Position numbers and translations under genes: made by a program
Notes under the pieces: model-generated
Told to the model about the DNA's origin: nothing
Databases searched by the model: none
Seen by the model: the letters and a program-made list of their open reading frames with translations, nothing else
Shown: positions 1,529 through 62,500 of the stretch, one piece after another
Numbering within the stretch: the first letter of the stretch is position 1
Layout of the letters: every line of letters starts with the position of its first letter
Assembly: GCF_002994045.1 (NCBI RefSeq)
Contig: NZ_MQUC01000003.1
Span: 2,828,501 to 2,892,500, forward strand
DNA from: Nonlabens agnitus
GTDB taxonomy: Bacteria; Bacteroidota; Bacteroidia; Flavobacteriales; Flavobacteriaceae
Direction: 5' to 3'
DNA length: 64,000 nucleotides

Positions 1529-1564
1529 CGCTTTCCTTTCTGCCGACAGGCAGGCGCGAAAGCG
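1529..1564. repeat. split copy of the 16-bp palindrome with 20-bp insert
   Basis: CGCTTT (1529-1534), then a 20-bp near-palindrome CCTTTCTGCCGACAGGCAGG (1535-1554), then CGCGAAAGCG (1555-1564). Removing the insert restores the exact 16-bp palindrome found elsewhere in the window. It lies between the ABC1 and TetR-like genes. Confidence 0.9.
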
Positions 1565-1630
1565 AACTTTTCAAAAATCATTTTCAACCTACAGTCAGTA
1601 ATATTTAAAATTTAGCCGATGGACCTAGGT

Positions 1631-2314
1631 TTAGGCCATTCGCTCTTTCCACAAAAACTTTCCAAAGTCAAAGACAGCATCCAGTGGTGTGTTATCAAAA
1701 ACATCAAAAATGGTGTTGACCGACTTCTCGATCGCCATATCTGTTTTCTCAAAACCAGCACTGTCGTCGTCCATCCAGAATTTGAGTAGGAATAACATTT
1801 GTACCCATGCACCTTCGCTATATATAGTTTCAGAGCGTTCTAGAAGTATGTTGGTTTTATTCTCGTTACGATCCTGAATCAATTCTTTGGCAAAACCTTT
1901 CACGTGCTTGCGCAAACCTTTAAGCTGTTCCATCTTGCTCATCATGTGCTGATTCTCTTGCAATGCAAACAGGACATAACTGCGGTTGAGTGTCAACAAT
2001 TCAAAGAAAGTATAGAAAAAGGTGAGCATTTTCTCACGGTTGGAAAAGCTGTGGTAATCCTCGCTTTTATGAGCCACATCCATCGTCATGGTAAAGAAGG
2101 TATTCCAAATCTCTTTGCGTAAACCTTCAAAACTTCCAAAAAAACCGTAGAAATCAGCTTCAGTCATATTATTATCCTTGGCAAACTTGAAGACACTTTT
2201 AGGTGTCTTCTCATGCTCAAGCACATATTCCATATAAGCGGTAATCACATCTTGACGATTGATTTCCTTTTTTGGGGTTGTTTTTTTTGTTGTGGTTTTC
2301 TTCACAGTCGCCAT
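1631..2314 (-). CDS. TetR-like transcriptional regulator
   Basis: A 227-residue protein with a Lys/Thr-rich N-terminal tail (about residues 1-18), then a helical region resembling a TetR DNA-binding domain (about 20-70): FAKDNNMTEADFYGFFG matches the helix-turn-helix plus the following Phe/Tyr helix. The rest is an all-helical, aromatic-rich ligand or dimer domain with no recognisable catalytic motif. It is transcribed toward the ABC1 kinase gene, about 157 nt upstream of it, and such TetR-like/ABC1 pairs suggest shared function. On its own strand TATCTTTA lies just upstream of the ATG, one base off the Bacteroidota TAnnTTTG element. The fold call is moderately sure; target and ligand are unknown. 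Confidence 0.7.
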   Translation of the reverse strand: MATVKKTTTKKTTPKKEINRQDVITAYMEYVLEHEKTPKSVFKFAKDNNMTEADFYGFFGSFEGLRKEIWNTFFTMTMDVAHKSEDYHSFSNREKMLTFFYTFFELLTLNRSYVLFALQENQHMMSKMEQLKGLRKHVKGFAKELIQDRNENKTNILLERSETIYSEGAWVQMLFLLKFWMDDDSAGFEKTDMAIEKSVNTIFDVFDNTPLDAVFDFGKFLWKERMA

Positions 2315-2486: not shown

Positions 2487-2505
2487 ACAAAATGTGTTTT
2501 ACCGA

Positions 2506-3094: not shown

Positions 3095-4843
3095 ATGTAC
3101 AGATCACACGATTGTGGCAGCTTGCGCTCCAGCGATATCAATAAGGAAGTTACACTTGCCGGTTGGGTTCAAAAGAGCCGCGATAAAGGATTCATGGTTT
3201 GGGTAGATTTAAGAGATCGATACGGCATCACGCAATTGATCTTTGATGAAGAACGTACCAACAAAGCCGTACTCGAACAAGCCCAAAAACTAGGACGCGA
3301 GTTTGTGATTCAGGTCAAAGGGACCGTTATTGAACGTGAATCCAAAAACGACAAAATGCCTACTGGCGATGTCGAGATTCTTGTAAAAGAACTTAAAGTA
3401 TTGAGCGAGTCCAAAACGCCACCTTTTACCATAGAAGATAAAACCGATGGTGGTGAGGAACTGCGTATGAAATACCGTTATCTAGATATACGCCGTAATC
3501 CTGTGCGTGAGAATCTGATCTTCCGTTCCAAGGTGGCGATGGAGGTGCGTAATTTCCTTGCAGGTAAGGATTTTGTTGAGGTGGAAACACCAGTGCTGAT
3601 CAAATCCACTCCAGAAGGTGCCCGTGATTTTGTCGTGCCATCCAGAATGAATGAAGGCCAATTTTATGCCCTTCCACAATCGCCACAAACCTTTAAGCAA
3701 CTGCTTATGGTAGGTGGATTGGACAAATATTTCCAGATTGTGAAATGTTTTAGAGATGAGGATTTGCGAGCAGATCGCCAGCCAGAGTTTACGCAAATCG
3801 ACTGCGAGATGTCCTTTGTAGAGCAGGAAGATGTGCTCAATATATTTGAAGAGATGACACGCCACTTGCTTAAAAAAGTGAAAAATGTGGATGTGACAGA
3901 ATTTCCTCGCATGACCTACCAGCAGGCGATGGAGAAGTACGGTAACGATAAACCAGACATTCGTTTTGGGATGGAGTTTGGTGATATTTCCGCTTTCGCG
4001 AAAGCGAGAGACTTCAAAATCTTCAATGAAGCCGAGTTAGTTGTCGCCATCGCAGTTCCTGGCGGTGCATCCATGACCAGAAAGGAAATCGACGGATTGA
4101 TCGACTGGGTAAAACGCCCGCAGGTAGGAGCTATGGGAATGGTCTATGCCAAATACAACGAAGATGGCACCTTTAAATCCAGCGTAGATAAATTCTATAA
4201 TCAAGACGACCTAGCCCAATGGGCTGAAGCCACTGGCGCACAACCAGGCGACTTGATATGTGTACTTTCTGGGCCAGCTAACAAAACTAGAGCGCAATTG
4301 AGTGCCCTAAGAATGGAAATGGCAGAGCGTCTAGGCCTAAGAAACGCTGATGAATTTGCTCCGTTATGGGTAGTGGATTTCCCGTTGTTAGAATGGGATG
4401 AAGAAACCAACCGCTACCACGCGATGCACCATCCATTTACATCGCCCAAACCAGAAGATATCGAGAAACTATCGACAGATCCTGGCAATGTGCGAGCAAA
4501 TGCCTACGACCTTGTCCTTAATGGTAACGAGATAGGTGGTGGATCTGTCAGGATATTTGATAAAAAACTACAGTCTTTGATGTTTGATCATCTAGGATTC
4601 ACACCAGAAGAAGCTCGAGCGCAATTTGGCTTTTTGATGGATGCTTTTGAATATGGAGCGCCACCGCATGCAGGATTAGCTTTTGGCTTTGACCGACTGG
4701 TGTCCATTCTGGGTGGTCAGGAAACCATACGTGATTTTATCGCGTTCCCTAAAAACAATAATGGCCGCGATGTCATGATTGACGCACCTTCAAAAATTGA
4801 TGATGAGCAGTTGAAGGAACTCAACTTAAAAGTGACCGTCTAA
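3095..4843 (+). CDS. aspS: aspartyl-tRNA synthetase
   Basis: A 582-residue class II aminoacyl-tRNA synthetase that charges tRNA-Asp in the cytosol; E. coli AspRS is 590. The order is an N-terminal OB-fold anticodon-binding domain (about 1-105), the catalytic core with motif 2 ([16 protein letters not shown]), the bacterial GAD insertion, and motif 3 ([10 protein letters not shown]) near the end. The 16-bp palindrome at 3991-4006 is read in frame as AFAKA (about residues 300-304), at the edge of the GAD domain where family members vary. The start follows a TAnnTTTG promoter. The small membrane-protein gene follows 18 nt downstream. Confidence 0.98.
3991..4006. repeat. 16-bp palindrome inside aspS
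   Basis: Perfect CGCTTTCGCGAAAGCG, read as AFAKA within aspS. Confidence 0.95.
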
Positions 4844-5686: not shown

Positions 5687-7447
5687 ATGGCACAAGACCT
5701 ACTTTCCCAGATTGATTCACCGGTTGATTTAAGACGCTTTCGCGAAAGCGAACTCCTCATTCTAGCTCAAGAATTGAGAGCGTTTATCATCGCCGCTGTG
5801 GCTGCAAAGGAAGGTCATCTGGGCGCTAGTTTAGGCGTTGTCGAGCTTACCATTGCGTTACATTATGTGTTTGATACACCGCAAGATCTGCTGGTTTGGG
5901 ATGTAGGTCATCAGGCTTATGGGCATAAAATATTGACGGGTCGGCGCGATGTGTTTCACACTAATCGTGAACTAGGTGGTATTTCTGGTTTCCCAAAACG
6001 ATCTGAAAGTGAGTACGATACCTTTGGTGTAGGCCACAGTTCTACAGCCATTAGCGCTGCGCTAGGAATGGCGATGGCGAGCCAATTAAAAGCCGAATCC
6101 CGTAAACACATTGCCGTGGTGGGCGATGCGAGTATTGCCAGCGGTATGGCCTTTGAGGCGCTCAACCATGCCGGTGTGAGCAGTGCCGATTTGCTCGTGA
6201 TTCTTAATGACAATGCGATAGGGATTGATCCAGCGGTTGGTGCGCTCAAAGATTATTTGACTAAAACCAAAAGCGGTAAAGAAACAGGTCGCGATAACAT
6301 TTTTGAATCGCTCAATTTTGATTATTCAGGACCCATCGATGGGCACGATCTACCAGCCTTGATCAAGGAATTAGAAAGGCAAAAAACTCTTGATGGGCCG
6401 CGACTGTTGCATGTGCGAACCACAAAAGGCAAAGGCCTCAAACAAGCTGAACTCGATCAAGTGCGGTACCACGCTCCTGGAAAGTTTGATAAAATTACCG
6501 GCGACATTCCTGCCAAAGATGACAGTAAGTTACCGCCTAAATTTCAAGATGTATTTGGGCATACGCTAGTAGAACTTGCCCAGCAAAATGAAAGGATCGT
6601 TGGTATCACTCCTGCCATGCCTACGGGTAGCTCCATGAAAATAATGATGGATGCCTATCCAGATCGTGCTTTTGATGTAGGCATTGCAGAGCAACATGCG
6701 GTCACGCTCGCAGCTGGAATGGCAACCCAAGGACTGATTCCTTTTTGTAATATTTATTCCACCTTTTTACAGCGCGCCTACGATCAGGTGATACACGATG
6801 TGGCACTGCAAAAGTTGCCGGTCGTTTTCTGTCTGGATCGTGCTGGTCTGGTAGGCCAAGACGGAGCGACGCATCACGGTGCCTTTGATCTTGCCTTTCT
6901 TAATTGTATTCCAGATTTGACCATCGCTGCACCTATGGACGCCATTGAGCTGCGCGATATGATGTACACTGCACAATTGGGCTTGGGCTTTCCTATTGCT
7001 ATACGTTATCCGCGAGGTCGCGGTCATCTTATGGACTGGCAACGACCCTTTTCAAAACTGGAAATAGGCCAGTCTAGATTATTAACTACTGGCAATCGCA
7101 TTGTGGTTATTAGTATAGGCACGATAGGAGTAATGGTACAGGAGCTGATAGAAACAGAAAAGCTCGAAGTCACGCACGTAGACTTAAGGTTTTTAAAGCC
7201 GTTGGATAAGAGTCAGCTGGATGAAGTTTTTGAAAATCATGATCATGTTATCACGATTGAGGATGGCACCATGGTAGGTGGAATGGGTAGTGCTGTTGGA
7301 GATTACGCTTTCGCGAAAGCGTACAAAGGATCCATCCATAAACTAGGTTTACCAGATTCTTTTATAGAACAAGGTCCCACAAGCGACCTGCAACAAATAG
7401 CAGAAATCGATCGTGGGACCTTGTTGAGCCTTATCAAAAGCCTATAA
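5687..7447 (+). CDS. dxs: 1-deoxy-D-xylulose-5-phosphate synthase
   Basis: A 586-residue thiamine-diphosphate enzyme that condenses pyruvate with glyceraldehyde-3-phosphate, the first step of the MEP isoprenoid pathway. Visible features: the HLGASLG and DVGHQAYGHK substrate/ThDP histidine motifs, the GDASIASGMAFEAL...NDN metal-ThDP motif, the catalytic Glu in GIAEQHAVTLAAG, and the transketolase C-terminal domain. It is about 35 residues shorter than E. coli Dxs, mostly in the linker after the NDN motif, which appears to be the norm in this group. Two copies of the 16-bp palindrome lie in the gene, read as RFRES (17-21) and AFAKA (541-545). Isoprenoid precursors made here also feed the polyprenyl synthase at 22998. 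Confidence 0.97.
   Translation: MAQDLLSQIDSPVDLRRFRESELLILAQELRAFIIAAVAAKEGHLGASLGVVELTIALHYVFDTPQDLLVWDVGHQAYGHKILTGRRDVFHTNRELGGISGFPKRSESEYDTFGVGHSSTAISAALGMAMASQLKAESRKHIAVVGDASIASGMAFEALNHAGVSSADLLVILNDNAIGIDPAVGALKDYLTKTKSGKETGRDNIFESLNFDYSGPIDGHDLPALIKELERQKTLDGPRLLHVRTTKGKGLKQAELDQVRYHAPGKFDKITGDIPAKDDSKLPPKFQDVFGHTLVELAQQNERIVGITPAMPTGSSMKIMMDAYPDRAFDVGIAEQHAVTLAAGMATQGLIPFCNIYSTFLQRAYDQVIHDVALQKLPVVFCLDRAGLVGQDGATHHGAFDLAFLNCIPDLTIAAPMDAIELRDMMYTAQLGLGFPIAIRYPRGRGHLMDWQRPFSKLEIGQSRLLTTGNRIVVISIGTIGVMVQELIETEKLEVTHVDLRFLKPLDKSQLDEVFENHDHVITIEDGTMVGGMGSAVGDYAFAKAYKGSIHKLGLPDSFIEQGPTSDLQQIAEIDRGTLLSLIKSL
5735..5750. repeat. 16-bp palindrome inside dxs (5' copy)
   Basis: Perfect CGCTTTCGCGAAAGCG, read as RFRES near the Dxs N-terminus. 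Confidence 0.95.
7306..7321. repeat. 16-bp palindrome inside dxs (3' copy)
   Basis: Perfect CGCTTTCGCGAAAGCG, read as AFAKA in the Dxs C-terminal domain. Confidence 0.95.
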
Positions 7448-8043: not shown

Positions 8044-9372
8044 TTAAATTTTCCCGTTGATGATGTGAAATAATCGGGAAGATTTGGTATCAGTGAGTGA
8101 TGCTACATAACAGCAAGCCGCTAGTAATCTGTCGTATAGATCTTCTGAAACTAATGCCGATGCGGGCAAAATTTCCAAAATCAATCGATCATAACTGGAG
8201 ACTTGACTATTCAAATGATTGACACTTGCTGTGATCACGGCGTCAAGGATAGATGTCAATATCTTGTATCCCGCAATTTCCTTTTCCACCACATCTGGAT
8301 GGCGGTACAGTTGCTCTCTGGTAATGGAAAGTATGTCCTCAATTTGTGGCTTGAACCTGGACAAATCTGTAAGAGATGTAGTGAGACTGCCAGTCAATAA
8401 AGCATCTTGCCTCTCCATAAACACATTTACGCAATCCGTTATTAAGCTACCGATGGCGAGAGATCTTAAATATGCGATGCGATCAGCCGTGGTGGTCAGG
8501 GCCGTGTAGGTTTCCGTTTTTATGTTGTCACGTACCAGATTGATGAGCAGTTCCAGTGCATGATCTTCGGCAATGTGGCCTAAGTTGATGGCATCCTCAA
8601 AATCAATAATGGTGTAACAAATATCATCTGCAGCCTCAACCAGATAGGTCAATGGATGGCGATGAAATGGCTGATTTTCATCTGTGGAATTAAGTCCTAG
8701 TTCTAGAGCGACATCGTTAAAATGTTCCACATCTGCCTGGAAAATCCCATATTTCTTTTGAGATATGTGTGTGGTGGGCTTCTTTGGCAAAGACTCTTTC
8801 GGGTATTTCACAAAAGCTCCTAAGGTCGCATATGAAAGTCTAAGACCACCTGGAGATCCAGCTACCGTTTTGTTAAGTAGGTGATATCCATTGGCATTTC
8901 CTTCAAAATCAAGCAGGTCTTGTTGTTGCTTTCGCGAAAGCGAACTCATTAAAGCATTTCCCTTTTCATTGGCAAAATAACTGCCTATAGCCTTTTCACC
9001 ACTGTGACCAAAGGGTGGATTTCCTATATCGTGAGCTAGCGCTGCTGCTGCCACAATGGCGCCAAAATCTTGATGCTGATACCCGTTTTCCTGTAATTCT
9101 GGATGCTTTTCCAGCAGGTGCTTTCCAGCCATACGACCCAAGGATCGCCCTACTACCGAAACCTCTAAGCTATGCGTCAACCTCGTATGCACAAAACCCG
9201 TCTGGCTTAAAGGAATTACCTGCGTTTTATCCTGCAGGCTGCGGAACTGTGAGGAAAAAATAATACGGTCATAATCCACCTCAAATCCCAGTCGCAAATC
9301 GTCCTGATCCTTTCTGTGCCTGGGCATGGTATCGCCATGTTTTTTAAGGGAAAGGAGCTGTAGCCAGTTCAT
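8044..9372 (-). CDS. dgt: dGTP triphosphohydrolase
   Basis: A 442-residue HD-domain enzyme that hydrolyses dGTP to deoxyguanosine and triphosphate. Visible motifs: the N-terminal R-S-x-F-x-R-L-like stretch (FSSQFRSLQDKTQV), the HSLEVSVVGRSLGR helix, the HD metal site in ALAHDIGNPPFGHSGE, and a later EAADDICYTIIDFEDA stretch carrying the conserved acidic residues. Length is normal for the family. A near-perfect copy of the 16-bp palindrome (first base differs) is read as LSRK at about residues 144-149. Neighbours do not suggest an operon. Confidence 0.95.
   Translation of the reverse strand: MNWLQLLSLKKHGDTMPRHRKDQDDLRLGFEVDYDRIIFSSQFRSLQDKTQVIPLSQTGFVHTRLTHSLEVSVVGRSLGRMAGKHLLEKHPELQENGYQHQDFGAIVAAAALAHDIGNPPFGHSGEKAIGSYFANEKGNALMSSLSRKQQQDLLDFEGNANGYHLLNKTVAGSPGGLRLSYATLGAFVKYPKESLPKKPTTHISQKKYGIFQADVEHFNDVALELGLNSTDENQPFHRHPLTYLVEAADDICYTIIDFEDAINLGHIAEDHALELLINLVRDNIKTETYTALTTTADRIAYLRSLAIGSLITDCVNVFMERQDALLTGSLTTSLTDLSRFKPQIEDILSITREQLYRHPDVVEKEIAGYKILTSILDAVITASVNHLNSQVSSYDRLILEILPASALVSEDLYDRLLAACCYVASLTDTKSSRLFHIINGKI
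8927..8942. repeat. 16-bp palindrome inside dgt, one mismatch
   Basis: TGCTTTCGCGAAAGCG; the first base differs from the consensus. Read as LSRK on the dgt strand. Confidence 0.9.
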
Positions 9373-13653: not shown

Positions 13654-13669
13654 CGCTTTCGCGAAAGCG
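13654..13669. repeat. 16-bp palindrome, intergenic before the Pit gene
   Basis: Perfect CGCTTTCGCGAAAGCG followed by AAC. It sits between the lipoprotein terminator and the Pit upstream repeats. Confidence 0.95.
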
Positions 13670-16048: not shown

Positions 16049-16064
16049 CGCTTTCGCGAAAGCG
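16049..16064. repeat. 16-bp palindrome between Pit and RND genes
   Basis: Perfect copy with extended symmetry, TTCGCTTTCGCGAAAGCGAA at 16047-16066. Confidence 0.95.
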
Positions 16065-20870: not shown

Positions 20871-22256
20871 TCAGTCTTGGTCATTGTTGGTTAGATATTC
20901 TGGTGTATTGAGTACGGTCTCTAGGGCAGCCTTATTAGTGATGACCTGATACATACTGTTGAGGTACTCGCTTTGTGCTTCATAAAGTTGGGTTTGTGCC
21001 TGTCTCAAATCAAAGCTGGTAGCGATACCTTCGGTAAATTTTATTTCGTTCTTGTTTTCAATGCGCTCTGCGAGCTGCAGGTTTTGTTTGCTGGTGAAAT
21101 AAGTGTCTATCGCCAGTTGATATTCATTGACGGCACGTTCATATTCCAACTCAATTTCTTGTTCTGCACGTACTTGATCTGTCAATGCTTGATCCCATGC
21201 AATCTTTGCGCGGTCCACTCGTGCCTTTCTACCAAAAGAAGTAAACACGGGCCAGTTGATGCTCAATCCAGCTATGGACTGTTGGAACCATTGCGTGTTG
21301 CTATTAAAGAACACAAAATCATCATCAAATGCTTGCGTCCCATAATTCACAAAGGCAGTGACTTTAGGCAACGCCTTGCTGCGTTCCAGTTTGTATTCCA
21401 GTCTGCGTTGTTCAGAAAGGTTTCTAGCAATTTGATAATCCACACTTTGCTCCAGGTTGAGATTCTCATTGGTTAGCGCAGGATCGATGGTTTTTAAGGC
21501 AAGACTTTCCAAGTCATCTTTTAGGGTAATGGTTTCCTTAAGATCAATTCCTAAAGCCAGTTGGAGCATATTCATCGCAATTTCAGTTTGTCGACGCGCG
21601 CTATTGAGCTGGTTGGTCAACTGTAAATATGTGATTTGTAATTGCTCGACATCTTCTTCTTCAGTAAGTCCGTTCTCGTAAATCTTGCGAGTCTCGTTGA
21701 GATTTTTTTCTACCGTCTCAAGATTGCGGGTCACGATATCTACGTTTTCTTGGGATAATAGCACGCCACCATAAGCGTTGATGACACCTTTGCGCACTTC
21801 CAGTTTAGTCTTGTTATTGGCATTTTCAGAAAAATCCAGAAACGTTTTTGAGGCTTCTAGCGCCACAATGTAGCTACCGTCAAAGATGATCTGGGAAAGA
21901 GTGGCCGTAAGATTAGCACTCTGTCTAGGCGAGAATGCTACGGGAACAAAAGTTCCAGGTTCGCCGCCAGCAATCTCTCCTGGTAGTGGCGTAATGGGTT
22001 GTTTCAGCTGATTTTGATAGTCTGCCGTACCAGTGACTTGCGGCAGGCCAGTTGCTGTAGTTTCCCATTTTTGCTTGAGCGCTGCAGCGATATCTCGCTT
22101 GGCATTCAAGGCTTGGTAGTTGTTGTTGAGCGCAAAATCGATGGCTTCTTCCAGCGTGAAAGCATAACTCTCCAGACCAGTTGTGGTTTGTTGTGAGTTC
22201 GCTTTCGCGAAAGCGAAAAACATCAAAATCAACGTCACATAGGATAATCTGTTCAT
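20871..22256 (-). CDS. TolC-family outer-membrane efflux protein
   Basis: A 461-residue outer-membrane channel of the tripartite pump. The signal peptide (1-22) is followed by the two repeated OEP domains: each has a long coiled-coil region with short strands between, e.g. ALNNNYQALNAKRDI early in the first and ATSFDLRQAQTQLYEAQSEYLNS at the end of the second. The N-terminal signal peptide contains AFAKA (15-19), encoded by the 16-bp palindrome, so its cleavage region derives from the repeat. The gene starts directly at the end of the upstream tetR gene with no gap. Confidence 0.95.
   Translation of the reverse strand: MNRLSYVTLILMFFAFAKANSQQTTTGLESYAFTLEEAIDFALNNNYQALNAKRDIAAALKQKWETTATGLPQVTGTADYQNQLKQPITPLPGEIAGGEPGTFVPVAFSPRQSANLTATLSQIIFDGSYIVALEASKTFLDFSENANNKTKLEVRKGVINAYGGVLLSQENVDIVTRNLETVEKNLNETRKIYENGLTEEEDVEQLQITYLQLTNQLNSARRQTEIAMNMLQLALGIDLKETITLKDDLESLALKTIDPALTNENLNLEQSVDYQIARNLSEQRRLEYKLERSKALPKVTAFVNYGTQAFDDDFVFFNSNTQWFQQSIAGLSINWPVFTSFGRKARVDRAKIAWDQALTDQVRAEQEIELEYERAVNEYQLAIDTYFTSKQNLQLAERIENKNEIKFTEGIATSFDLRQAQTQLYEAQSEYLNSMYQVITNKAALETVLNTPEYLTNNDQD
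22200..22215. repeat. 16-bp palindrome in the tolC signal-peptide region
   Basis: Perfect copy with extended 20-bp symmetry (22198-22217), read as AFAKA at residues 15-19. Confidence 0.95.
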
Positions 22257-25574: not shown

Positions 25575-25590
25575 CGCTTTCGCGAAAGCG
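25575..25590. repeat. 16-bp palindrome, intergenic
   Basis: Perfect copy with extended symmetry TTCGCTTTCGCGAAAGCGAA (25573-25592), 6 nt from the stop of the barrel-protein gene. Confidence 0.95.
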
Positions 25591-33620: not shown

Positions 33621-34697
33621 ATGTATAATTTAAGAACGCACTATCCTGCGCTCCAGGATTACACCTATCTCAACACCGCAGCTCATGGATTGATTAGTAC
33701 CGTGGTGGTAGATTATAAGGCTTCCCTAAATCATGAGCTACTTCATCATCCAGCTTATTTTGCTGAGCGGCGCACACCATTTATGAACGAAGTGCGCAAC
33801 AGTCTTTCCAGCTATCTTGATTCACATTACCATCTCACGGCTCTAGTATCTAATTTTTCACTCGCGTTCAATGCATTGCTGGAAGGTATTCCAGCCACAA
33901 AGAAGTTTTTACTGGTCAAAGGTGATTACCCATCCGTCAACTGGCCGGTAGAGGCTCGTAAATTTCAATGCTGTTATGCAGACCTCAATGCCTCTTTAGA
34001 AGAAAATATATGGCAAGCCTGTGAGCAACACCAGCCAGATTTCTTGGCATTGTCCATAGTCCAATATATTTCTGGTATTAGGATAAGCTTGAAGTTTTTG
34101 AAGGATCTAAAAGTCCAATTTCCGGACTTGATCATCATCGCAGATGGAACCCAGTATATAGGTGTGGAAGAATTTCGCTTTCGCGAAAGCGGAATAGACA
34201 TACTCGCCGCATCCTGTTATAAATGGCTCGACGCTGGCGACGGTAATGCTTTTATCACCTTCAAAGAAGATGTGGTGGAACGGATCAAACCAAAATTTAC
34301 CGGATTCAATAGCGTGCAGGATTTCAAGAACGACCGCGGCAGTTTTATGGGGCATTTTGAGCCTGGACATCAGGACATGATGGCCTTCGGTGGTTTGCAA
34401 AAAGCTGTTGAGTTTTGCGATGAATACGGTATGCAGCACATTGAAAAGCAAATAAAAATCCTTACTGATGCCGCGATGGATGCCTTTACACAACGTAACC
34501 TTTTAAAGCCTGAAGTAACGGCACGCGATCGTCATTCTTCTATTTTTAATATTAGCGGTGATGAGGTCTTGATGGAACGTCTAAGTGATCAAAACATCAT
34601 CGTATCACAGCGTGGCGATGGCTTGCGCGTGAGCTTTTCCTATTACAACTCGATGGATGACCTGCATCGTTTGCTGGATGTGATCGACAGCCATTAA
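33621..34697 (+). CDS. class V PLP-dependent aminotransferase-like protein
   Basis: A 358-residue fold-type I PLP enzyme of the class V (cysteine desulfurase/selenocysteine lyase-like) group. YLNTAAHGLIS opens the fold near the N-terminus; IIADGTQYIGVEEF carries the PLP-binding Asp; and the Schiff-base Lys is in ASCYKWLDAGDGNAF (about residue 198). No Cys-containing desulfurase loop is obvious, so a sulfur-transfer role is not indicated and the substrate is unknown. The palindrome at 34176 is read as RFRES (186-190), just before the catalytic Lys region. It is a single gene divergent from the DHFR fusion. Confidence 0.88.
   Translation: MYNLRTHYPALQDYTYLNTAAHGLISTVVVDYKASLNHELLHHPAYFAERRTPFMNEVRNSLSSYLDSHYHLTALVSNFSLAFNALLEGIPATKKFLLVKGDYPSVNWPVEARKFQCCYADLNASLEENIWQACEQHQPDFLALSIVQYISGIRISLKFLKDLKVQFPDLIIIADGTQYIGVEEFRFRESGIDILAASCYKWLDAGDGNAFITFKEDVVERIKPKFTGFNSVQDFKNDRGSFMGHFEPGHQDMMAFGGLQKAVEFCDEYGMQHIEKQIKILTDAAMDAFTQRNLLKPEVTARDRHSSIFNISGDEVLMERLSDQNIIVSQRGDGLRVSFSYYNSMDDLHRLLDVIDSH
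34176..34191. repeat. 16-bp palindrome inside the aminotransferase gene
   Basis: Perfect CGCTTTCGCGAAAGCG, read as RFRES (186-190) close to the PLP lysine. Confidence 0.95.
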
Positions 34698-36477: not shown

Positions 36478-36513
36478 CGCTTTCCTGTCTGCCGACAGGC
36501 AGGCGCGATAGTG
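36478..36513. repeat. split copy of the palindrome with 20-bp insert
   Basis: CGCTTT (36478-36483), insert CCTGTCTGCCGACAGGCAGG (36484-36503), then CGCGATAGTG (36504-36513), the right half with two substitutions. Intergenic, just after the GH16 gene. Confidence 0.88.
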
Positions 36514-38418: not shown

Positions 38419-41253
38419 TTAATGCGCCTCTAACCAATTCTCACCAACTCCAACTTCTACATCTAGCGGTACGCTCATTTTATAGGCGTTTTGCATTTCT
38501 TCCTGAATCAGTTTTTTCATGTCTTCCAATTCATCATTGTGAATGTCAAAGACCAATTCATCATGTACCTGCAACAACATTTTTGATTTGCAGTTGAGCT
38601 CCTCAAGTTTCTTATGAATATTGATCATCGCAATCTTGATGATGTCTGCCGCACTACCTTGTATAGGTGCGTTCACGGCATTACGCTCGGCAGCGCCTCG
38701 CACGACCGCGTTAGAACTATTGATGTCTTTTAAATAGCGACGTCTGCCTAGCACCGTTTCCACATAACCGTTCTCTCTCGCAAAGGCGACCTGATCATCC
38801 ATATAGGCGCGCAGCTTGGGATAGGTTTTATAGTAGGTGTCGATCAGTTCTTTGGCTTCACTGCGGTCCAGGTCGGTTTGATTGCTCAACCCAAATGCCG
38901 AAACTCCATAGATGATTCCAAAATTCACGGTTTTGGCATTGCTGCGTTGTTCTCTAGTCACGTCTTCCAGAGCGACGTCAAAAACTTTAGCTGCCGTAGA
39001 GGCGTGAATATCTTCACCACTCTGGAACGCAGCCATCATGTTTTCTTCTTCACTCAACGCTGCGATAATGCGCAATTCAATTTGCGAGTAATCGGCTGCG
39101 AGAAGCGTGTAATTTTCATCACGTGGGACAAAGGCCTTGCGCACCTGTCGACCACGTTCAGTTCTGATAGGAATATTTTGCAGGTTGGGATCTGTCGAGC
39201 TCAATCTACCGGTTGCCGCCACGGTTTGCATGTAATTGGTATGGATGCGTTGCGTGTCTGGATTCACCTGATTAGGCAAGGCATCCACATAGGTGCTTTG
39301 CAACTTTGCCAGACCGCGATATTCCAGGACATCTGCGATGATCTGGTGGTCTTTGGCAAGGTAACTCAACACATCTTCAGCGGTGGAATATTGACCGGTC
39401 TTAGTCTTTTTAGGCTTGTCCACCAGCTTCAACTTCCCAAAAAGGATTTCTCCCAACTGCTTCGGCGAGCCTATGTTGAACTCTTCGCCAGCTTCCTTAT
39501 AGATGTTTTTTTCCAGCGCAGCGATATCTTCTGTTAGCTTTCGCGAAAGCGAACTCAAATAATCCTCGTCCAGATTGATTCCTTCAATTTCCATGTCAGC
39601 AAGCACTCTCAACAACGGGATCTCGATGTCTGCAAAGAGTTTATCGGTGCCTGCGGCTTTGAGCTCTGGCGTAAAATGTTGCTTGAGTTGGAAGGTGATA
39701 TCTGCATCCTCTACCGCATATTCCTTGACTTTTTCCACGTCCACATCACGCATGGATTTTTGGTTCTTGCCTTTTTTACCGATCAGCTCCACGATGGATT
39801 GAGGCGTGTAGTTGAGATAGGTTTCTGCCAAAATATCCATGTTGTGGCGCATGTCTGGATTGATGAGATAATGCGCAAGCATGGTGTCAAAAATGGGTCC
39901 TTTAACATCTACCTGGTACTTATCCAGCACCTTGATGTCATACTTTAAATTCTGTCCAATCTTCTCAATTTCTGCCGATTCAAAAAATGGCTTGAGTTGA
40001 TCCACCACGGCTTGAGCCTGCTCGCGATCTTGAGGAATAGGCAGGTAGTATCCTTTTCCTTTTTCCCAGCAAAAGGCGATCCCAACAAGTTCTGCAGCTA
40101 GTGGATCCAGACTGGTAGTCTCTGTATCAAAACAGACGCTGGTTTGCTTCATGAGGGTTTGAAGGAACAACTTGGTTCCCATTCCTTCCTGTACGACTTG
40201 GTATAGGTGGTCTGTAGTAGCTAGCGTTTGTCTGCCAGTGGCTTGGGCTTCGGCTTTGGTTCCAGAACCAGGCGTATCAAACAAGGAAAACTGACCAGCT
40301 CCTGCTGATGAATCTGAACTTGAATTGGAATTTGAATCTGCAGATTCAAGGATTTCTTTAGAAAAAATCTTAGCTAGCGTCTCCTTAGCCCTACGAAATT
40401 CCAACTCGTCAAAAATCTCGTGAACGGCTTCCACATCTGGATCGTCCAGAGTGTATTTGTCGGCACTAAAGGTGACGGGACAATCTAATTTAATGGTAGC
40501 GAGTTGTTTGGAAAGACGCCCCAATTCCGCATTCTCTCTTATTTTCTCGCCCAGTTTGCCTTTGATATTCTCTGCATTTTCCAGCAAGGCTTCCATACTG
40601 CCGTACTCTTTGATGTACTTTTTGGCCGTTTTATCACCTACACCAGGCAATCCTGGAATATTATCACTGGAATCACCCATCATTCCTAGATAATCAATCA
40701 CTTGTTCTGGTCGCTCTACTTCAAATCGCTTTTGAACCTCTGGAATGCCCCATATTTCAATGCCATTACCCATGCGGGCTGGCTTGTACATAAAAATCTT
40801 TTCAGAAACCAATTGTGCATAATCCTTATCTGGCGTGACCATATAGACGGTAAACCCTTCTTTTTCCGCTTGTTTTGAAAGTGTCCCAATCAAATCATCT
40901 GCCTCGATACCAGCTTCTACGACGATAGGAATGTGCATGGCTTTGAGTATGCGCTGTATGTACGGAATGGCTAGTCGTATGGCTTCTGGAGTTTCATCGC
41001 GATTCGCCTTATAATCCTCGTACAATTCGGTACGTTCTGCGCTTCCTTCCTTATCAAAAGCAACGGCAAGATATTCTGGTTTCTCACGGCGTATGACGTC
41101 AAATAAAGAGTTGGTAAAACCCATGATGGCACTGGTATCCATGCCCTGTGAATTGATTCTTGGGTTTTTGATGAGTGCGTAATAGCCTCTAAAAATTAGG
41201 GCATAGGCATCAAGTAAAAACAGTCTTTTATCGTCAGTTCCGTCGTTTGTCAA
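38419..41253 (-). CDS. polA: DNA polymerase I
   Basis: A 944-residue repair and Okazaki-fragment polymerase. In order: the 5'-3' exonuclease domain (about 10-300; FDKEGSAERTELYEDYKANRDE, DKDYAQLV, GLPGVGDKTA), a degenerate-looking linker with Ser-rich stretch, an apparently active 3'-5' exonuclease (CFDTETTSLDPL), then the polymerase domain with motif A (LLAADYSQIELRI), motif B (RSNAKTVNFGIIYG) and motif C (QVHDELVFD). The size is close to E. coli (928). The palindrome at 39536 is read as LSRK near residue 568, just before the polymerase core. No operon partners. Confidence 0.97.
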   Translation of the reverse strand: MTNDGTDDKRLFLLDAYALIFRGYYALIKNPRINSQGMDTSAIMGFTNSLFDVIRREKPEYLAVAFDKEGSAERTELYEDYKANRDETPEAIRLAIPYIQRILKAMHIPIVVEAGIEADDLIGTLSKQAEKEGFTVYMVTPDKDYAQLVSEKIFMYKPARMGNGIEIWGIPEVQKRFEVERPEQVIDYLGMMGDSSDNIPGLPGVGDKTAKKYIKEYGSMEALLENAENIKGKLGEKIRENAELGRLSKQLATIKLDCPVTFSADKYTLDDPDVEAVHEIFDELEFRRAKETLAKIFSKEILESADSNSNSSSDSSAGAGQFSLFDTPGSGTKAEAQATGRQTLATTDHLYQVVQEGMGTKLFLQTLMKQTSVCFDTETTSLDPLAAELVGIAFCWEKGKGYYLPIPQDREQAQAVVDQLKPFFESAEIEKIGQNLKYDIKVLDKYQVDVKGPIFDTMLAHYLINPDMRHNMDILAETYLNYTPQSIVELIGKKGKNQKSMRDVDVEKVKEYAVEDADITFQLKQHFTPELKAAGTDKLFADIEIPLLRVLADMEIEGINLDEDYLSSLSRKLTEDIAALEKNIYKEAGEEFNIGSPKQLGEILFGKLKLVDKPKKTKTGQYSTAEDVLSYLAKDHQIIADVLEYRGLAKLQSTYVDALPNQVNPDTQRIHTNYMQTVAATGRLSSTDPNLQNIPIRTERGRQVRKAFVPRDENYTLLAADYSQIELRIIAALSEEENMMAAFQSGEDIHASTAAKVFDVALEDVTREQRSNAKTVNFGIIYGVSAFGLSNQTDLDRSEAKELIDTYYKTYPKLRAYMDDQVAFARENGYVETVLGRRRYLKDINSSNAVVRGAAERNAVNAPIQGSAADIIKIAMINIHKKLEELNCKSKMLLQVHDELVFDIHNDELEDMKKLIQEEMQNAYKMSVPLDVEVGVGENWLEAH
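39536..39551. repeat. 16-bp palindrome inside polA, one mismatch
   Basis: AGCTTTCGCGAAAGCG; the first base differs. Read as LSRK on the polA strand. Confidence 0.9.
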
Positions 41254-41413: not shown

Positions 41414-41449
41414 CGCTTTCGCGCCTGCCTGCCGGCAGGCAGGAAAGCG
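41414..41449. repeat. split copy of the palindrome with perfect 20-bp insert
   Basis: CGCTTTCGCG (41414-41423), insert CCTGCCTGCCGGCAGGCAGG (41424-41443, itself a perfect palindrome), then AAAGCG (41444-41449). It is the best-preserved split copy. Confidence 0.92.
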
Positions 41450-45554: not shown

Positions 45555-45570
45555 CGCTTTCGCGAAAGCG
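45555..45570. repeat. 16-bp palindrome, intergenic
   Basis: Perfect copy with extended symmetry TTCGCTTTCGCGAAAGCGAA at 45553-45572. Confidence 0.95.
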
Positions 45571-47175: not shown

Positions 47176-47475
47176 ATGTCAAAATTTGGTGAGTTAATCA
47201 GTTCCCATGTTCCTGTTCTATTCAATTTCTTTACAGATTGGAACGAGGAAAGTACGAGCATGCATCCCGTATTGCGTGAAGTAGCTGCCGCAATAGGTGA
47301 TAACGCCAGAATCATAAAAATCAACGTAGATAAAAATCCAGAACTCTCTGATGCCTTGCGCATCAAAGGTTTGCCTACCTTGATCATTTACAAACAGGGC
47401 GAGATGAAGTGGCGACAAAGCGGTGCCCAGGATAGCGAGGCGCTCATCAATTTATTGAAGCAGTACGCGTCCTAA
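47176..47475 (+). CDS. thioredoxin-fold protein without active-site cysteines
   Basis: A 99-residue thioredoxin-like protein. The beta-strand VPVLFNFFTDW and the cis-proline loop (KGLPTLIIY, Pro67) are in the family positions, but the CxxC site is replaced by WNEES (22-26) and the protein has no cysteine at all. It therefore cannot do thiol-disulfide exchange and may act as a binding or scaffold domain. It converges on the polysaccharide deacetylase gene with a 4-nt (CTAA) overlap. Confidence 0.85.
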   Translation: MSKFGELISSHVPVLFNFFTDWNEESTSMHPVLREVAAAIGDNARIIKINVDKNPELSDALRIKGLPTLIIYKQGEMKWRQSGAQDSEALINLLKQYAS

Positions 47476-48089
47476 GAAATAGGTAGGCACTCAAATTGTT
47501 GCTCCTGTAACCATTCTAAGTATTCTGGAAGTACCTCTTTTAAAATGGGAAACGCTTTCTCACTGTCGTGAAATACGACTACACTTCCATTTCTAGTGTG
47601 TCTTTTAAGGCTTTTCAAACTACTTTCAGGAGATCTGCTGGTGTCAAAGTCTCCTGATAGTACGTCCCAAAGAACAATTTTATAACCATCAGCCACGAGT
47701 TGTTGGGCAACTTTTCTATGGATGCGGCCGTATGGTGGTCTGAATAGGCTGTTGCTGGTGTTCGCTTTCGCGAAAGCGATATCCTTCAAATACATTTCAC
47801 TGGAAACCTTCCATGAGTTCAAATGGTGGAAGGTATGATTCCCAATGGAATGTCCAGCCTCCAAGACTTCCTTTTTTAGGCCGGGAAAACGCTGGGCGCG
47901 ATCACCTATTAAAAAGAAGGTGGCCTTAAATCCAAAACGCTCTAGTTGCTCCAGAACAAAATGCGTCACCATAGGTGTAGGACCATCATCAAAGGTGAGG
48001 TACACTTGCGATTTGTTGCGGTCACCATGCCAGTGATATTTGGGAAACAAACCGCTTAACCAGTCTGGTATGCGATCTGGATACCACAT
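47472..48089 (-). CDS. polysaccharide deacetylase (NodB domain)
   Basis: A 205-residue NodB-homology (CE4) deacetylase. All motifs are present: TFDDGPTP with the catalytic Asp, the HxxxH zinc site GNHTFHH, RPPYGRIH, WDVLSGDFD and the C-terminal VVFHDS. No signal peptide is obvious. The palindrome at 47763 gives AFAKA (about 105-109) between the zinc and RPPYG motifs. Its start overlaps the DUF2723 stop by 1 nt, so the two are probably translated together and may act on the same envelope glycan. Confidence 0.93.
   Translation of the reverse strand: MWYPDRIPDWLSGLFPKYHWHGDRNKSQVYLTFDDGPTPMVTHFVLEQLERFGFKATFFLIGDRAQRFPGLKKEVLEAGHSIGNHTFHHLNSWKVSSEMYLKDIAFAKANTSNSLFRPPYGRIHRKVAQQLVADGYKIVLWDVLSGDFDTSRSPESSLKSLKRHTRNGSVVVFHDSEKAFPILKEVLPEYLEWLQEQQFECLPIS
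47763..47778. repeat. 16-bp palindrome inside the deacetylase gene
   Basis: Perfect CGCTTTCGCGAAAGCG, read as AFAKA. Confidence 0.95.
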
Positions 48090-51000
48090 TATTCGTTAAC
48101 GGTATCGCCTACAGGTTCAATTGTTCTTTCGGCGTCTGCATTGTCGATTTCGCTCTCCAATAGCTTGATCAGCTCTTCATCTCCAACCTCACCAGGCAAT
48201 CTCAACTGCTCGTTATCATTGTAAACCCTAGGGAACGACTTCACATAACTATTGAAAGCATCTAGGTGTTTCTCGATCATTAGGTCATCATCATTGTCGA
48301 TCGCCGTACGTACTAAACCACGATAGCGCTCTATGGCGGTGATGATTTCGCGACTTATTAGGCTTTGCTCTTCCAGCGGCATGGCTTTATAATAATCCAA
48401 CTCATCTTGGTATTTAAGGACCACACGGTTGAGTAGGTCCTGAGCCTTTGCGGTAGTGCCTATTTCATAATAACTACTTACAAAAGGCTCGATCATGGAA
48501 TAGTGCTCAAAATATTCCAATGGCATTTTTTCCATACCTAGGTCAAGAATTTCTTCTGCTTTTTCCAGCTGGTTGTCTGCAATAAGCGCTTGCGCAGCTC
48601 TAGTTACATTACTTCTATATCCAACACTGTTGCGACGGGTCTCTACATCATGATAGATGTCTGGACTACCGCTGTTGCCCCAATCCCATCCTTTGATGAT
48701 TTTATAGGCTCTATCTGGATTGATGCGTCCCATATCAAATGGATCCCTTTGATCTACCGGCGGCGTATAAATAGGCGTCAATAGGTAGGCGGTTCCATCC
48801 AGTTGCAAATAATCCTTCATCCAGATGTAATCTTCATCTCCAAAGGCACCACCAGAGAAATACACCGGTCGTTCCCAGTTGTTAGCATTGATGATGTCCA
48901 GCATAAACATGCGGTTTTTATAAACCAGATCGGATTCTATGTTGATTATAATCTCATCCACGATCTTATTAGCATCCTTGGCAGCTACCACACCGTTTTT
49001 CAAAACAGCTTCTTTATTTACTGGAATGCGAATGTATTTAGTTGGGAACGTATGCTCGTAGTGATCGTTGCGCATCAATTCTTGCGTGATTTTGCTATCA
49101 CTCGCTACCCATTCCATCCAGTCTTTGAGATCCATGGTGTCTGGAAATACATAGTTTGGATTTTGTTGGGCTTGACGCAAGCGTTCTTGGATGCGTTCCT
49201 TTTCTGTATACCATAAGGCATCGCGCGTACCGTAGACATATTTGTCATGCGTCAAGGTAGATGGCACTGGCTCACTCTCATAGGCCTTTTTCTTCATGTC
49301 GTCCATATACCAATCAGTACTCAATAGTGAGGTACAAACGATGCGAACATCTGTGCGGTAACCTTCTACTTCTTGAGCATACCATAATGGGAATGTGTCG
49401 TTGTCACCTATGGTAAACAGTAACGCGTTAGGCAGGCAGCTGTCCAGATATTTTTTGGCGCTGGCTAGTGCCGTATATTTTTCAGACCTATCGTGATCAT
49501 CCCAATTCTGGAAGCCCATCAATAGAGGCACAGCGGCAAAACACACCGCTATCGTGGCAAATTTGACAACTTTACTTTTGGTATACTCCAGCAGGCCTTC
49601 ATAGATCGCATAAACGCCCATTCCTATCCACATGGCAAAAACTAGGAAGGATCCCACATAGGCATAATCACGCTCACGCACTTGGTACATGCTCTGGTTA
49701 AGGTACACGATGATCGCCAGACCCGTGAAGAGGAATAACATCATGGTCACTACAAAAGACTTCCAATCTTTTTTGGCATGGAACACAGCGCCTAAAATAC
49801 CCAAGATCAACGGCAGGAAATAATAGAGGTTGCGACCTTTATTGTTAAGCATGTCATCGCTCAATTCATCTTGCGAACCTATATGCAGCTCGTCAATGAA
49901 GTCTATACCGCTTAACCAATTACCATTAAAGCGATCACCCATTCCCTGAATATCATTCTGTCTACCGGTAAAATTCCACATGAAATACCGCAGGTACATG
50001 TAACTAATCTGGTAGTTAAATAGGTAACTTAAATTCTGACCAAAACTAGGTTTCTTGATATCTACAGCTTCAGAAAGGGAAGCGATGGTCTGTATATACT
50101 CATCTGCACTAATGCGCCCACGATCAAATTGACGCTCATAATCGTCAAGCACACTTATGAGCTCTTGGTTCCCTTGATAGCCTGGCTTGATTTCATATTC
50201 TAGACCACCCATAAACTCTACATAATTGCTGGCACGACTGGCATCTGTCATTCTGGGAAAGAAGCCTTTATGATCGTCATGCGTGTTTTGCAGCGCGTTT
50301 TCAAACTGGTTGACGATCACATATTTTCCTTGCTCATAATCGCGCTCATACTTGGGCTTTTCATCAATATATGGATCATCTGGATCTAGACCGGCATACA
50401 TATCTGTAAAGGCTTCTCCAAAAAATAATGCGGGCGATGGATATTGTTCCCTGTTGTAATAGGCGAGCAGCGCACGCGCATCATTAGGGTTGTTCTCATT
50501 AATAGGTGTTCCTGCATTGGCTCTTATAGGCAGCATGGTCCAGCTAGAGAAACCTATAAGGACAAACATGACGCAGATAGTGATGGTGTTGAGAAGTGGT
50601 TTGTTACGCTTTCGCGAAAGCGATATCAATCCCACAAAAGCTGCCACGATCATGATAAAGGCGATGATAGTACCGCTGTTGAAGGGCAACCCTATGTCGT
50701 TTACAAAAAAGACCTCAAGGTAACCGAAGATACTGAGCGTAGTAGGCAACAGCAATTTAAAGACAAACAGCAACACGGCTACCACAGCAATTAATGCCAC
50801 GGTAAAATTGAGTGGTGTGACTTTTCTATAGTGTCTAAAGAACCACATCATTCCTATGGCAGGAATGGTTAAAATCCCCAAGAAGTGAACTCCAAACGAT
50901 AGCCCTATAATAAAAGACATGAGGATCAACCAGCGATTACCGCGCGGCTCCATCATGTCGCGTTCCCACAACAAGCCCAGATAGAACATGCTGCTCATGA

Positions 51001-52772: not shown

Positions 52773-52788
52773 CGCTTTCGCGAAAGCG
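52773..52788. repeat. 16-bp palindrome, intergenic before rimP
   Basis: Perfect copy with extended symmetry TTCGCTTTCGCGAAAGCGAA at 52771-52790. Confidence 0.95.
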
Positions 52789-58052: not shown

Positions 58053-58068
58053 CGCTTTCGCGAAAGCG
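58053..58068. repeat. 16-bp palindrome, intergenic before the act operon
   Basis: Perfect copy with extended symmetry TTCGCTTTCGCGAAAGCGAA at 58051-58070. Confidence 0.95.
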
Positions 58069-59578: not shown

Positions 59579-59598
59579 TATTATAGCTTAAGAAATTT

Positions 59599-62500
59599 AT
59601 GGCTACTACTAAAAAATACTGGAAGAGCACAGCACAACTCGATGAGAGCAATGAGATGGTTAAAAATCTCGAGCAAAACGAGTTTGCTACAGCTATTCCT
59701 ACTGAAGAATTTTTAGGAAATGATGAAGTGTTGGAAGCCTCCAGCACTACGCGTCGTGACTTCTTGAAATATGTTGGGTTCAGTACTGCAGCGGCATCAC
59801 TTGCTGCCTGTGAAGGTCCTGTGATCCACTCGGTTCCTTATGTGAACCAACCAGATCGTATCATTCCTGGTATGGCAAACTATTATGCCACTACCATAGC
59901 AGATGGTTATGATTTTGCCAGTGTTGTCATCAAGACACGTGAAGGTCGACCTATCAAGGTTGAAGGGAATCGTGATATTCCTGCACGTGGTAACGCAAAC
60001 GCAAGAGTTCATGCTTCTGTTTTGGGATTGTATGACAACAACAGATTAAAGACTCCTTTAGTTAAAGGTAAAGAAGCAACCTGGTCAGAGCTTGACAAAG
60101 AAGTGCGTCAGCAATTGAATGCCAATGCTGGGAAACAAATTGTTTTCTTGACACAGACATTTGCTAGCCCATCAACAGCTAGACTTATTGAAGACTTTAA
60201 AGCTGCTTATCCTAACGTACGTCAAGTGATTTATGATACTGTTGGTGAAGAAGCTGCTCTTGATGCATTTGAGGCAAAATACTTCCAGCGTGGTCTTGCA
60301 GATTATGATTTTAAGGATGCAGAGTGTATTGTAGGTGTAGGTGCTGACTTTGTAGGTGACTGGCAAGGTGGTGGTTTTGATACCAACTACGCACAGTCTA
60401 GAGTTCCCAAGAATGATAAAATGTCGCACCACATACAGTTTGAGGCTAACATGACTCTTTCTGGTGCTAATGCAGACAAGCGTTATCCTGTAACTCCTAC
60501 AGAGCAAAAACAAATTATTGCTGCGCTTTACAGCAAGTTGGTAGGCGGTTCGGCTAACAATAACCTTTCTGAAAAAGTGAATAAAGCAGTTGAAGAAGCT
60601 GCTCAAAAATTGAGAAGAGCTGGTAGTAAAGCCGTCGTTCTTTGTGGATTGCCTGATCAAGGTGCCCAACAATTGACATTGGAAATCAATGAGCGATTGG
60701 GTAGTACGATCATTGATACAGCAGCGCCGGTGATGACCCGTCAAGGTAACCGTCGCGCCGTAGCTCAATTAGTAAAAGATATGGAAAGCGGTGCTGTAGG
60801 TGCTGTTTTTGTAGCTGGAGTTGATCCAGTATATAGCTATTCTGATAGTGACGCTTTCGCGAAAGCGTGGAAAAATGTACCCTTAACCGTTTCATTTGCA
60901 TCTAGGTTAGATGCAACTGCAAAGGAGTCGATGTATGTGGCTACAACGCCTCATTATCTGGAATCTTGGGGTGATGTAGAAATGAAAAAGGGAACAGTGT
61001 CCCTGATGCAGCCTACGATCAAGCCATTGTTTGACACGCGCCAAATGCAAGATTCACTTTTGAAGTGGTCTGGAAGTGATGTGTCTTATAAAGATTATAT
61101 CAAAACCTTCTCCACTGGAAATGGTGCTTCATGGAATCAATCCTTACAGGATGGTTTTTATGCTGCGGCAGGCTCTGAAACGTTGTCCTCTGGCGATCAA
61201 GTTCCTAACATAAATAATACTTCTGCCTTAAGAGATCTTTCTGGAGCTACCGCTGCTGGTGATTTTGAGTTGGTATTGTACACTAAAATATCAATGGGTG
61301 ATGGTACACAAGCCAATAATCCATGGTTACAAGAATTACCAGATCCTATCACTAGAACGACTTGGGATAATTACCTGACCATCTCGCAAAAGGATGCAGA
61401 TGCTTTAGGTATTGAAAACTTCAACGTTGCCAACGGTGCTCTTGATGGTACATATGCTATCGTGAAAATGGACGGTGTGGAACGTAAGATTCCTGCTTTG
61501 ATCCAGCCAGGACAAGCGCCAGGTACTATAGGTATCGCTTTAGGTTATGGTAGAACTTCGGGCATACAAGAAGAAATGCAAACCGGTGTTAATGCTTTCC
61601 CTTTCTATAAAGATGGGATTTCAGTTCAATCTGTAAGTGTTGAAGCTGCAGGTGAAGTTCATGAATTTGCATGTACACAATTGCAAAATACCATGATGGG
61701 TCGCGATATTATTCGTGAGACAGACCTAGCTACTTATATTGCAGGTGATCAGCATGAGTTTAACCCAATGCCTGAAGTTTCCTTGAATCACATTGAAACT
61801 CCAGTGACATCACCAGATGTTGATCTTTGGGAAAGTTTTGACCGCTCAGTAGGACATCATTTCAATATGTCTATTGACTTGAATGCTTGTACCGGTTGTG
61901 GTGCATGTGTTGTAGCATGTCATGCAGAAAATAACGTACCTGTTGTTGGAAAAACAGAAGTAAGAAGATCCAGAGATATGCACTGGTTGCGTATTGACAG
62001 ATATTACTCATCCACAGATAGTTTTGAAGATGATGAATCCAAAAAAGATGGATTCTCAGGATTGTTTGGTGAGAATGGTTCTCTAGGTGGTTTTGGTGAG
62101 TTGGAAATTCCAGCAGACCAACCGCAGGTAGCTTTCCAGCCTTTGATGTGTCAGCACTGTAACCACGCTCCATGTGAGACGGTTTGTCCAGTCGCAGCAT
62201 CGTCACACGGTCGTCAAGGTCAAAACCACATGATTTACAACCGTTGTGTAGGTACAAGATATTGTGCTAACAACTGTCCATATAAAGTACGTAGATTCAA
62301 CTGGTTCTTGTATAACGGCAATGACGAGTTTGATTACCACATGAATAATGATCTAGGTCGTATGGTGATCAATCCTGATGTTACCGTGAGATCTCGTGGT
62401 GTGATGGAAAAATGTTCTATGTGTATGCAAATGACGCAAATGACCATTCTAGAGGCCAAGAAAGACGGAAGAATGATCAAAGACGGTGAATTTGCAACAG

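Follow-up and report, generated by a model that had tools for sequence, protein, structure and literature searches.

Among the described systems closest to the element treated here, the uptake signal sequences (USS) of Haemophilus have AT-rich flanking tracts. The sites parS and Noc are read by a dimer, with a distance of 4 bp between TTTC and GAAA in parS, and the sites for Noc, MatP and SMC loading show patterns relative to the origin (ori) or terminus (ter) of replication. The Chi sites known so far are short, at 5-8 nt, and depend on orientation. Repetitive extragenic palindromes (REPs) are extragenic and copied as units; palindromes of the REP and bacterial interspersed mosaic element (BIME) type are preferred targets of other elements, and IS1397 inserts in BIMEs. 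Highly iterated palindromes (HIPs) linked to a methylase are described in PMC4390886, and the account of USS and of the DNA uptake sequences (DUS) of the Neisseriaceae in PMC1939737 includes a declining mismatch series. Here we describe a 16-bp palindrome, CGCTTTCGCGAAAGCG, found repeatedly in a stretch of 64,000 nt from Nonlabens agnitus (the window; positions 2,828,501-2,892,500 of a 3.19-Mb contig, in a genome of 3.216 Mb), together with its distribution, architecture and conservation. The sites are most likely a recognition mark that is read by a protein and that perhaps separates own from foreign DNA.

A preliminary description of the window had reported 15 exact copies of the palindrome and two one-base variants (8927, 39536), and every one of these was found where it had been placed. 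The 17 copies are the only matches with up to two mismatches in the window, for which 100 shuffled versions average 0.01, and six of them extend to the perfect 20-bp palindrome TTCGCTTTCGCGAAAGCGAA. The genome contains 676 exact 16-mers against 0.0003 predicted from base composition (a reversed control pattern gave 0) and 762 copies of the 14-bp core GCTTTCGCGAAAGC, so that the motif is by no means restricted to the window. Other palindromes do not approach this abundance: over 800 kb sampled, 200 copies of CTTTCGCGAAAG were counted, as against four of the 12-bp palindrome ranking second. The main sample of the own genome consisted of forty 20-kb stretches plus the window (864 kb, 212 cores). 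In this sample the series of 14-mers with zero to three mismatches is 212, 23, 17 and 50, with 0.002, 0.08, 1.7 and 21.8 expected.

Searched in 59 genomes, the 14-mer core yielded 288-857 copies in each of the 23 Nonlabens genomes (own genome included), six copies in one of 13 genomes from other genera of the family and none in the remaining 12, and none in all 23 genomes from other families. A second set of 24 genomes was reached through named loci and showed 478-701 cores in 11/11 Nonlabens and 0-4 in the 13 others; judging by their counts, these 11 fall among the 23 already mentioned. A protein search of named genomes places the own genome in this genus: the eleven nearest of 77 loci were Nonlabens (82-92% identity), ten under that name and one under the title Flavobacteria bacterium BBFL7 (Flavobacteriaceae). 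The protein tree described below is in agreement. Among 397 genomes of the family the 16-mer was matched in 48: four of four Nonlabens (448-676 copies), 42 others with 1-13 copies, and one genome each of two other genera, G274 (630) and G258 (153). Among 395 genomes of the class the 14-mer was matched in 24, and none but the own genome exceeded four copies.

The site is an extended dyad of about 78 bp, comprising the 14-bp core and about 32 bp of degenerate, C-poor and T-rich flank on each side. When both sides of the 212 cores were folded, a mirror-image flank motif appeared around the strict core: a C adjoins the core (frequency 0.95 in intergenic sites) and is followed by TT and a C-poor zone to about -16, with preferences for A at -5, T from -14 to -10, G at -16/-15 and, more weakly, T from -32 to -24. 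The frequency of C is 0.068 at positions 2-9, 0.073 at 10-16, 0.140 at 17-24, 0.146 at 25-32 and 0.193 at 33-60, against a background of 0.205. Genic and intergenic sites carry the same extended motif, which is equally seen in other Nonlabens and in G274. Lone half-sites are rare, as 385 of 398 occurrences of TTTCGCGAAAGCG and 385 of 435 of the half CGAAAGCG (both strands) lie within full sites. In any one site the two flanks vary independently of each other, position -2 (z 5.3) being the exception; this points to two protein-DNA half-contacts rather than a hairpin, and we infer that a symmetric (dimeric) protein reads the site. A hairpin or cruciform, or an RNA terminator, was considered and rejected: the mirrored flanks pair no more than the marginal frequencies predict, bar position -2, and there is neither a T-run beside the window copies nor a preference for convergent gaps.

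The core is strongly protected from mutation between close relatives, with 17-40 times less change than its surroundings. Over 216,583 bases aligned between the own genome (G000) and the relative G007 (94.4% identity), 61 of 64 sites are common to both; the other three differ by a single core base each, and around one of these there are 13 differences in about 100 bp. Counted both ways, the core changed at three of 896 bases; with an overall difference of 5.6%, this is about 17-fold fewer. In the relative G020 (53,745 bases, 79.9% identity) 16 of 17 sites are common, and the other is intact in G020 but split in the window. Starting from the intact sites of the own genome, the core difference rate is 0.0012 for G007 and 0/210 for G020, compared with 0.048 and 0.187 at 33-50 bp, which makes the G007 core rate 40-fold lower.

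Individual sites show the same behavior. The site at 28652..28667 encodes AFAKA in ORF (open reading frame) 26259-29015; its core is intact in 10 of 11 Nonlabens loci, with a single mismatch in one, and AFAKA is present in all 11, while outgroups have other residues in a segment of mostly equal length. This site at least arose by substitution, at a cost in amino acids, and was then held. The sites at 22200..22215 (where minus-strand ORF 20871-22256 encodes its N-terminal, signal-peptide-like part) and 34176..34191 (ORF 33621-34697) were kept in all six Nonlabens loci with a long alignment; one match of 29-38 bp for each was dropped as possibly representing another site.

Genic and intergenic positions were assigned with a crude ORF caller. 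By this map ORFs hold 132 of the 212 sampled sites, a density of 0.168 per kb. The other 80 are intergenic, at 1.03 per kb, a six-fold higher density that is distributed over tandem (1.20 per kb), convergent (1.09) and divergent (0.88) gaps. The frame A-F-A-K-A is preferred within ORFs (80/132). Spacing is over-even, with a coefficient of variation (CV) of 0.52 against 0.91 and six of 171 gaps below 1 kb where 42 were expected; none of 5000 uniform and none of 3000 class-preserving simulated placements was as extreme. Gaps below 1 kb are also few in orthologous stretches of other Nonlabens (0/30, 5.6 expected), in G274 (2/42, 10.5 expected) and in G258 (0/18, 3.3 expected). The replichore bias on which the preliminary description had proposed a check did not appear, counts in the forty 20-kb stretches showing no ori-ter trend (p 0.38). 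Two Nonlabens phages contain no site in 70.7 kb; in a viral collection 41 stretches matched the 16-mer. Three stretches of the own genome with mobility and defence genes (56 kb) hold three sites, with about 13 expected at the genome mean. Two site-poor stretches of lower GC content (L240 and L241; C4:270-318 kb) encode a tyrosine integrase, a MobA relaxase, a STAND/Mrr-like gene and a Wadjet-type operon, in which JetD was assigned by Pfam and JetA-C are presumed from their domain names.

In a tree of one protein (98 rows), Nonlabens has as its sister group G274 together with the genus g95 (genomes G354 and G144), on a joint branch with support 88 (not starred), and G258 sits in a separate, distant branch. 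Genus g95 has 13 (G354) and 12 (G144) 16-mers per genome. The trait is taken to be old in the Nonlabens/G274 line, lost in g95 and separately present in G258. In support, though in small numbers, a site was found at the same place for two of five genic sites of Nonlabens whose G274 orthologue aligned, versus none of ten with a g95 orthologue; for G258 no sampled pair aligned. The 153 exact 16-mers of G258 (L150-L155, L172-L175) come with a weak flank motif, perhaps a sign of a recent independent gain of the reader. Genus g95 has no abundant palindrome (L228-L239 of G354; L245-L247 of G144), and in 240 kb of G354 (L228-L239) a 10-mer, ATTTCCGAAG, is iterated 27 times versus 0.6 expected; samples of G035, G277 and G376 contained nothing comparable to it. 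In at least seven low-count genera (L156-L164) the sites lie within a common segment, which we take to be a metal-efflux operon from its resemblance, at fixed spacings of 933, 2446 and 3460 bp. Such spacings in genera otherwise nearly free of sites suggest transfer, probably from a site-rich, Nonlabens-like donor.

Candidates for the reader protein were sought among known families. A ParB/Noc/KorB-type reader was ruled out, as each of 27 genomes encodes a single PF02195 protein and no extra ParB/Noc paralog; parS and Noc had been set aside in the preliminary description too. The methylase domains PF00145 and PF01555 do not track the sites, being absent from eight and seven of 18 Nonlabens genomes, respectively, and three of the 18 lack both and still hold 563-752 cores; a methylase reader from these two families was rejected on this basis (the search did not extend to PF02384, PF02086 or others). 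An ATPase of type IV pilus-like character (E<=1e-60) was found in three of 19 Nonlabens and in neither G274 nor G258, at a threshold that remoter homologues would escape. The own genome has a type IV pilus/type II secretion-like locus (L030:8738-18698; C4:328.7-338.7 kb) with PilB/GspE, a secretin, GspF and pilin-like proteins, and the match of its pilin to ComP_DUS is sub-threshold (E 4.2e-4, 21.6 bits, cut-off 27.3). With the ATPase in only three of 19 Nonlabens, the locus is accessory, and the pilus/ComP route is therefore a false lead as the general reader of a genus-wide signal. To judge from the encoded proteins, parts of an uptake system do exist: ComEC was found in 20/20 and the DUF5689 family in 42/42 genomes. 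The scan of ten proteins from comEC neighborhoods (seven own, three of G274) returned no DUF5689 or receptor candidate.

Within the window, the copies inside ORFs (11/17), a location already noted in the preliminary description, comprise the three described above and those at 3991..4006 (ORF 3095-4843), 5735..5750 and 7306..7321 (ORF 5687-7447, the former close to its 5' end), 47763..47778 (ORF 47472-48089), 50607..50622 (ORF 48089-51445) and 60852..60867 (ORF 59599-62664), all of them exact, and two copies with the outermost base changed at 8927..8942 (TGCTTTCGCGAAAGCG, 14-bp core intact; ORF 8044-9372) and 39536..39551 (AGCTTTCGCGAAAGCG; ORF 38419-41253). The remaining 6/17, all exact, lie between ORFs: 13654..13669, with one core point mutation in G007; 16049..16064, which extends to the perfect 20-bp palindrome and is placed between convergent ORFs; 25575..25590; 45555..45570 and 52773..52788, each between divergent ORFs; and 58053..58068, between co-oriented ORFs.

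Of four split copies previously claimed, three were recovered; the fourth was not found with the patterns used. At 1529..1564, CGCTTT and CGCGAAAGCG are separated by a 20-bp palindromic insert, and the site is split in G007 too. The site at 36478..36513 is split by a 20-bp palindromic insert and decayed, and an intact site occupies this place in G020. At 41414..41449 the order is CGCTTTCGCG, CCTGCCTGCCGGCAGGCAGG and AAAGCG; the insert in the G007 orthologue has CGCG on both sides, which in this one case looks like a 4-bp duplication. By hand count, 10 of 12 sampled 20-bp palindromes of the CCTGCCTGCCGGCAGGCAGG type (L320 included; two diverged variants excluded, L125:494 in a site and L125:741 not in a site) lie inside sites near the dyad, usually at CGCG^AAAGCG or its mirror. 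The insert also occurs in the G274 and G258 samples; with the strict pattern it was absent from 300 kb of g95, from 400 kb sampled in three other genomes and from 1.38 Mb of other, named genera. The insert looks like a guest for which the sites serve as targets. At L135:1350 the sequence interrupting a site is another repeat-like insert, CACTTCGACCGTGCTCAGTGACCG, and other elements may target the dyad too.

The facts ask for a reader that acts in trans on both half-sites, a force on the single site and saturation within about 1 kb. Uptake bias combined with recombination would give all three. We tentatively regard the sites as being under site-by-site selection or drive, most likely as an uptake-type self mark, and put this at somewhat less than an even chance. 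A symmetric dimeric reader would recognize the dyad with both of its halves. Point substitution would make and keep sites under a putative drive acting on each one, with further sites disfavored where one is already present within about 1 kb. If the sites are linked to DNA uptake, fragments with one site would be preferentially taken up or processed, and imported alleles with intact sites would replace broken ones, so that sites spread through permissive positions; one site per fragment would be enough, leading to saturation within about 1 kb. The preliminary description had likened the motif to uptake sequences, and for its distribution this likeness held: the sites are genic and intergenic, change by point mutation, show no ori-ter trend, are lineage-specific and are scarce in sampled phage and island DNA, so that their distribution resembles that of DUS/USS given in PMC1939737 and PMC3630211. 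The even spacing and the flanking footprint go beyond that description. Riemerella, of the same family, is described in PMC8459023 as transforming with ComEC, ComF, DprA, RecA and four further proteins that have no known relatives in competence, and a pilus may therefore be dispensable. According to PMC7965970, R. columbina has a preference for own DNA, with no motif established.

Several points weigh against an uptake-type mark. The likeness to USS/DUS does not extend to the site itself, which is a perfect palindrome, while the uptake sequences treated in PMC1939737 are not palindromes, nor to a receptor of the pilus/ComP type, given the distribution of the ATPase. ComEC and DUF5689 occur throughout the family, irrespective of the sites, and therefore neither support nor exclude it; no paper joining Nonlabens with natural competence was found in the open-access library searched. 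The need for both halves and the conservation of each site would fit an intracellular dimer equally well. Among the comparative data, the 40-fold figure starts from intact own sites, which favors low core change, and the spacing and flank set of other Nonlabens consists of orthologous stretches and is hence not independent. In the CV test the evidence is weaker, with p 0.033 for G274 and p 0.087 for G258, the flank motif of G258 is weak, G274 orthologues share no more than the two of five genic sites mentioned, and the site-poor stretches of the own genome were picked for their gaps in the site list. Single window sites contribute as well: 25575..25590 was seen in two of 11 Nonlabens rows (the other nine do not span the whole core), 39536..39551 is absent in the sole aligned relative (L052), and of four rows for 16049..16064 one is a 32-bp match while three stop short of the core.

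An intracellular dimer is the basis of the strongest competing explanation, a chromosome-organizing grid in which a dimeric nucleoid protein on about 700 even sites bends or bridges DNA or loads something, and in which regular spacing and conservation reflect direct selection for a function in cis. This accounts for the dyad as well as or better than uptake, and for the spacing equally; the perfect dyad, independent flanks, requirement for both halves, over-even spacing, core constraint and the lack of an ori-ter trend agree with it, as do T-rich flank stretches with a weak apparent peak near 9.5 bp, as for bent DNA. The lack of an ori or ter pattern, in which the sites differ from those for Noc, MatP or SMC loading, also speaks against such a grid, as do the absence of a second ParB/Noc-type protein in 27/27 genomes, the 12-13 16-mers per g95 genome and the failure of any genome outside the family to exceed four cores. 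We regard such a grid as possible but rather unlikely. About as doubtful is the fuller version in which the reader of the dimeric chromosome protein grid can move between genera, a site-rich genome lying in a distant branch, forces sites into genes at a cost in amino acids and keeps their spacing mostly above 1 kb, which would be a kind of architecture or self-recognition not described before. A Chi-like recombination or repair signal, at which the sites regulate an end-processing nuclease and G/T-rich 3'-ending strands suit RecA loading, appears improbable. Strands with their 3' end at the dyad are poor in C and rich in T and G, the sites are scarce in the sampled phages and island stretches, and the density of Chi in E. 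coli is near that of these sites; but a strict palindrome of 14 bp is unlike Chi, and little of the flank bias persists past 32 bp.

Two further explanations are less probable still. A mutational drive of the HIP type (the Elhai 2015 model for cyanobacterial HIP1), with a methyltransferase acting within the palindrome and biased mismatch repair, would agree with a palindrome that occurs both in and between genes. The HIP1-like methylase origin raised in the preliminary description nevertheless fits poorly and is given slightly less weight than a Chi-like signal: the unit is at least 14 bp long with counts near expectation by three mismatches, the half CGAAAGCG falls almost entirely in full sites (385/435), PF00145 and PF01555 are patchy, with 3/18 Nonlabens lacking both (other methylase families were not searched), and local mutation bias predicts neither repulsion below 1 kb nor a 32-bp flank motif. 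A dispersed mobile or structural palindrome of the REP/BIME or terminator type, spread by copying, is very improbable. It would agree with the perfect palindrome and with the 20-bp palindromic elements that insert into sites; on the other hand, 132 of 212 sampled sites are genic, each of the three sites that differ between G000 and G007 does so by a point mutation, the segment at 28652..28667 has the same length in most outgroups, the flanks form a motif and not copied sequence, with no excess pairing save at one position, and convergent gaps are not preferred.

The palindrome is a strong genome-wide signal across a sampled marine genus, of which no description was found in searches of an open-access library. 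If it is an uptake mark, it would be the first palindromic one to our knowledge and a handle on the pilus-free uptake studied in Riemerella; if it is a nucleoid grid, chromosome organizers of this type would be new. Either way it offers a precise bait for the reader protein. The sites in at least seven other genera flag a common DNA segment from a probable site-rich donor.

Compared with known systems, the Nonlabens sites are like USS and DUS in occurring in hundreds of copies, genic and intergenic with an intergenic excess, in changing by point mutation, in the declining mismatch series from a strict core, in being lineage-specific, with another motif in a related genus, and in being scarce in sampled phage and mobile DNA. 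They are unlike them in being a perfect palindrome of 14-16 bp with both halves needed and mirror-image flanks, with no pilus-type machine genus-wide, and they are fewer than the DUS dialects, for which PMC3630211 gives 2245-5918 copies per genome. Like HIP1 of cyanobacteria (GCGATCGC), the site is palindromic, highly iterated, present in and between genes and lineage-wide; unlike HIP1 it is twice as long, has a flank motif and even spacing, and PF00145/PF01555 are not genus-wide. The enriched unit is a 14-16-mer with wider flanks, not the octamer GCGATCGC nor a HIP of the length of a methylase site. With parS/Noc it shares a 16-bp palindrome containing TTTC and GAAA; these are 2 bp apart here, however, and there are about 700 copies without an ori-ter trend and a single ParB per genome. 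Like Chi (RecBCD/AddAB) it is a candidate mark of self DNA, but it is long and symmetric with a wide flank motif, whereas Chi is short and asymmetric. As with REP/BIME, the palindrome hosts preferential inserts; unlike REP/BIME, the sites are mostly genic and change by substitution. We class the palindrome as a highly iterated genomic recognition signal that is a member of none of these named families.

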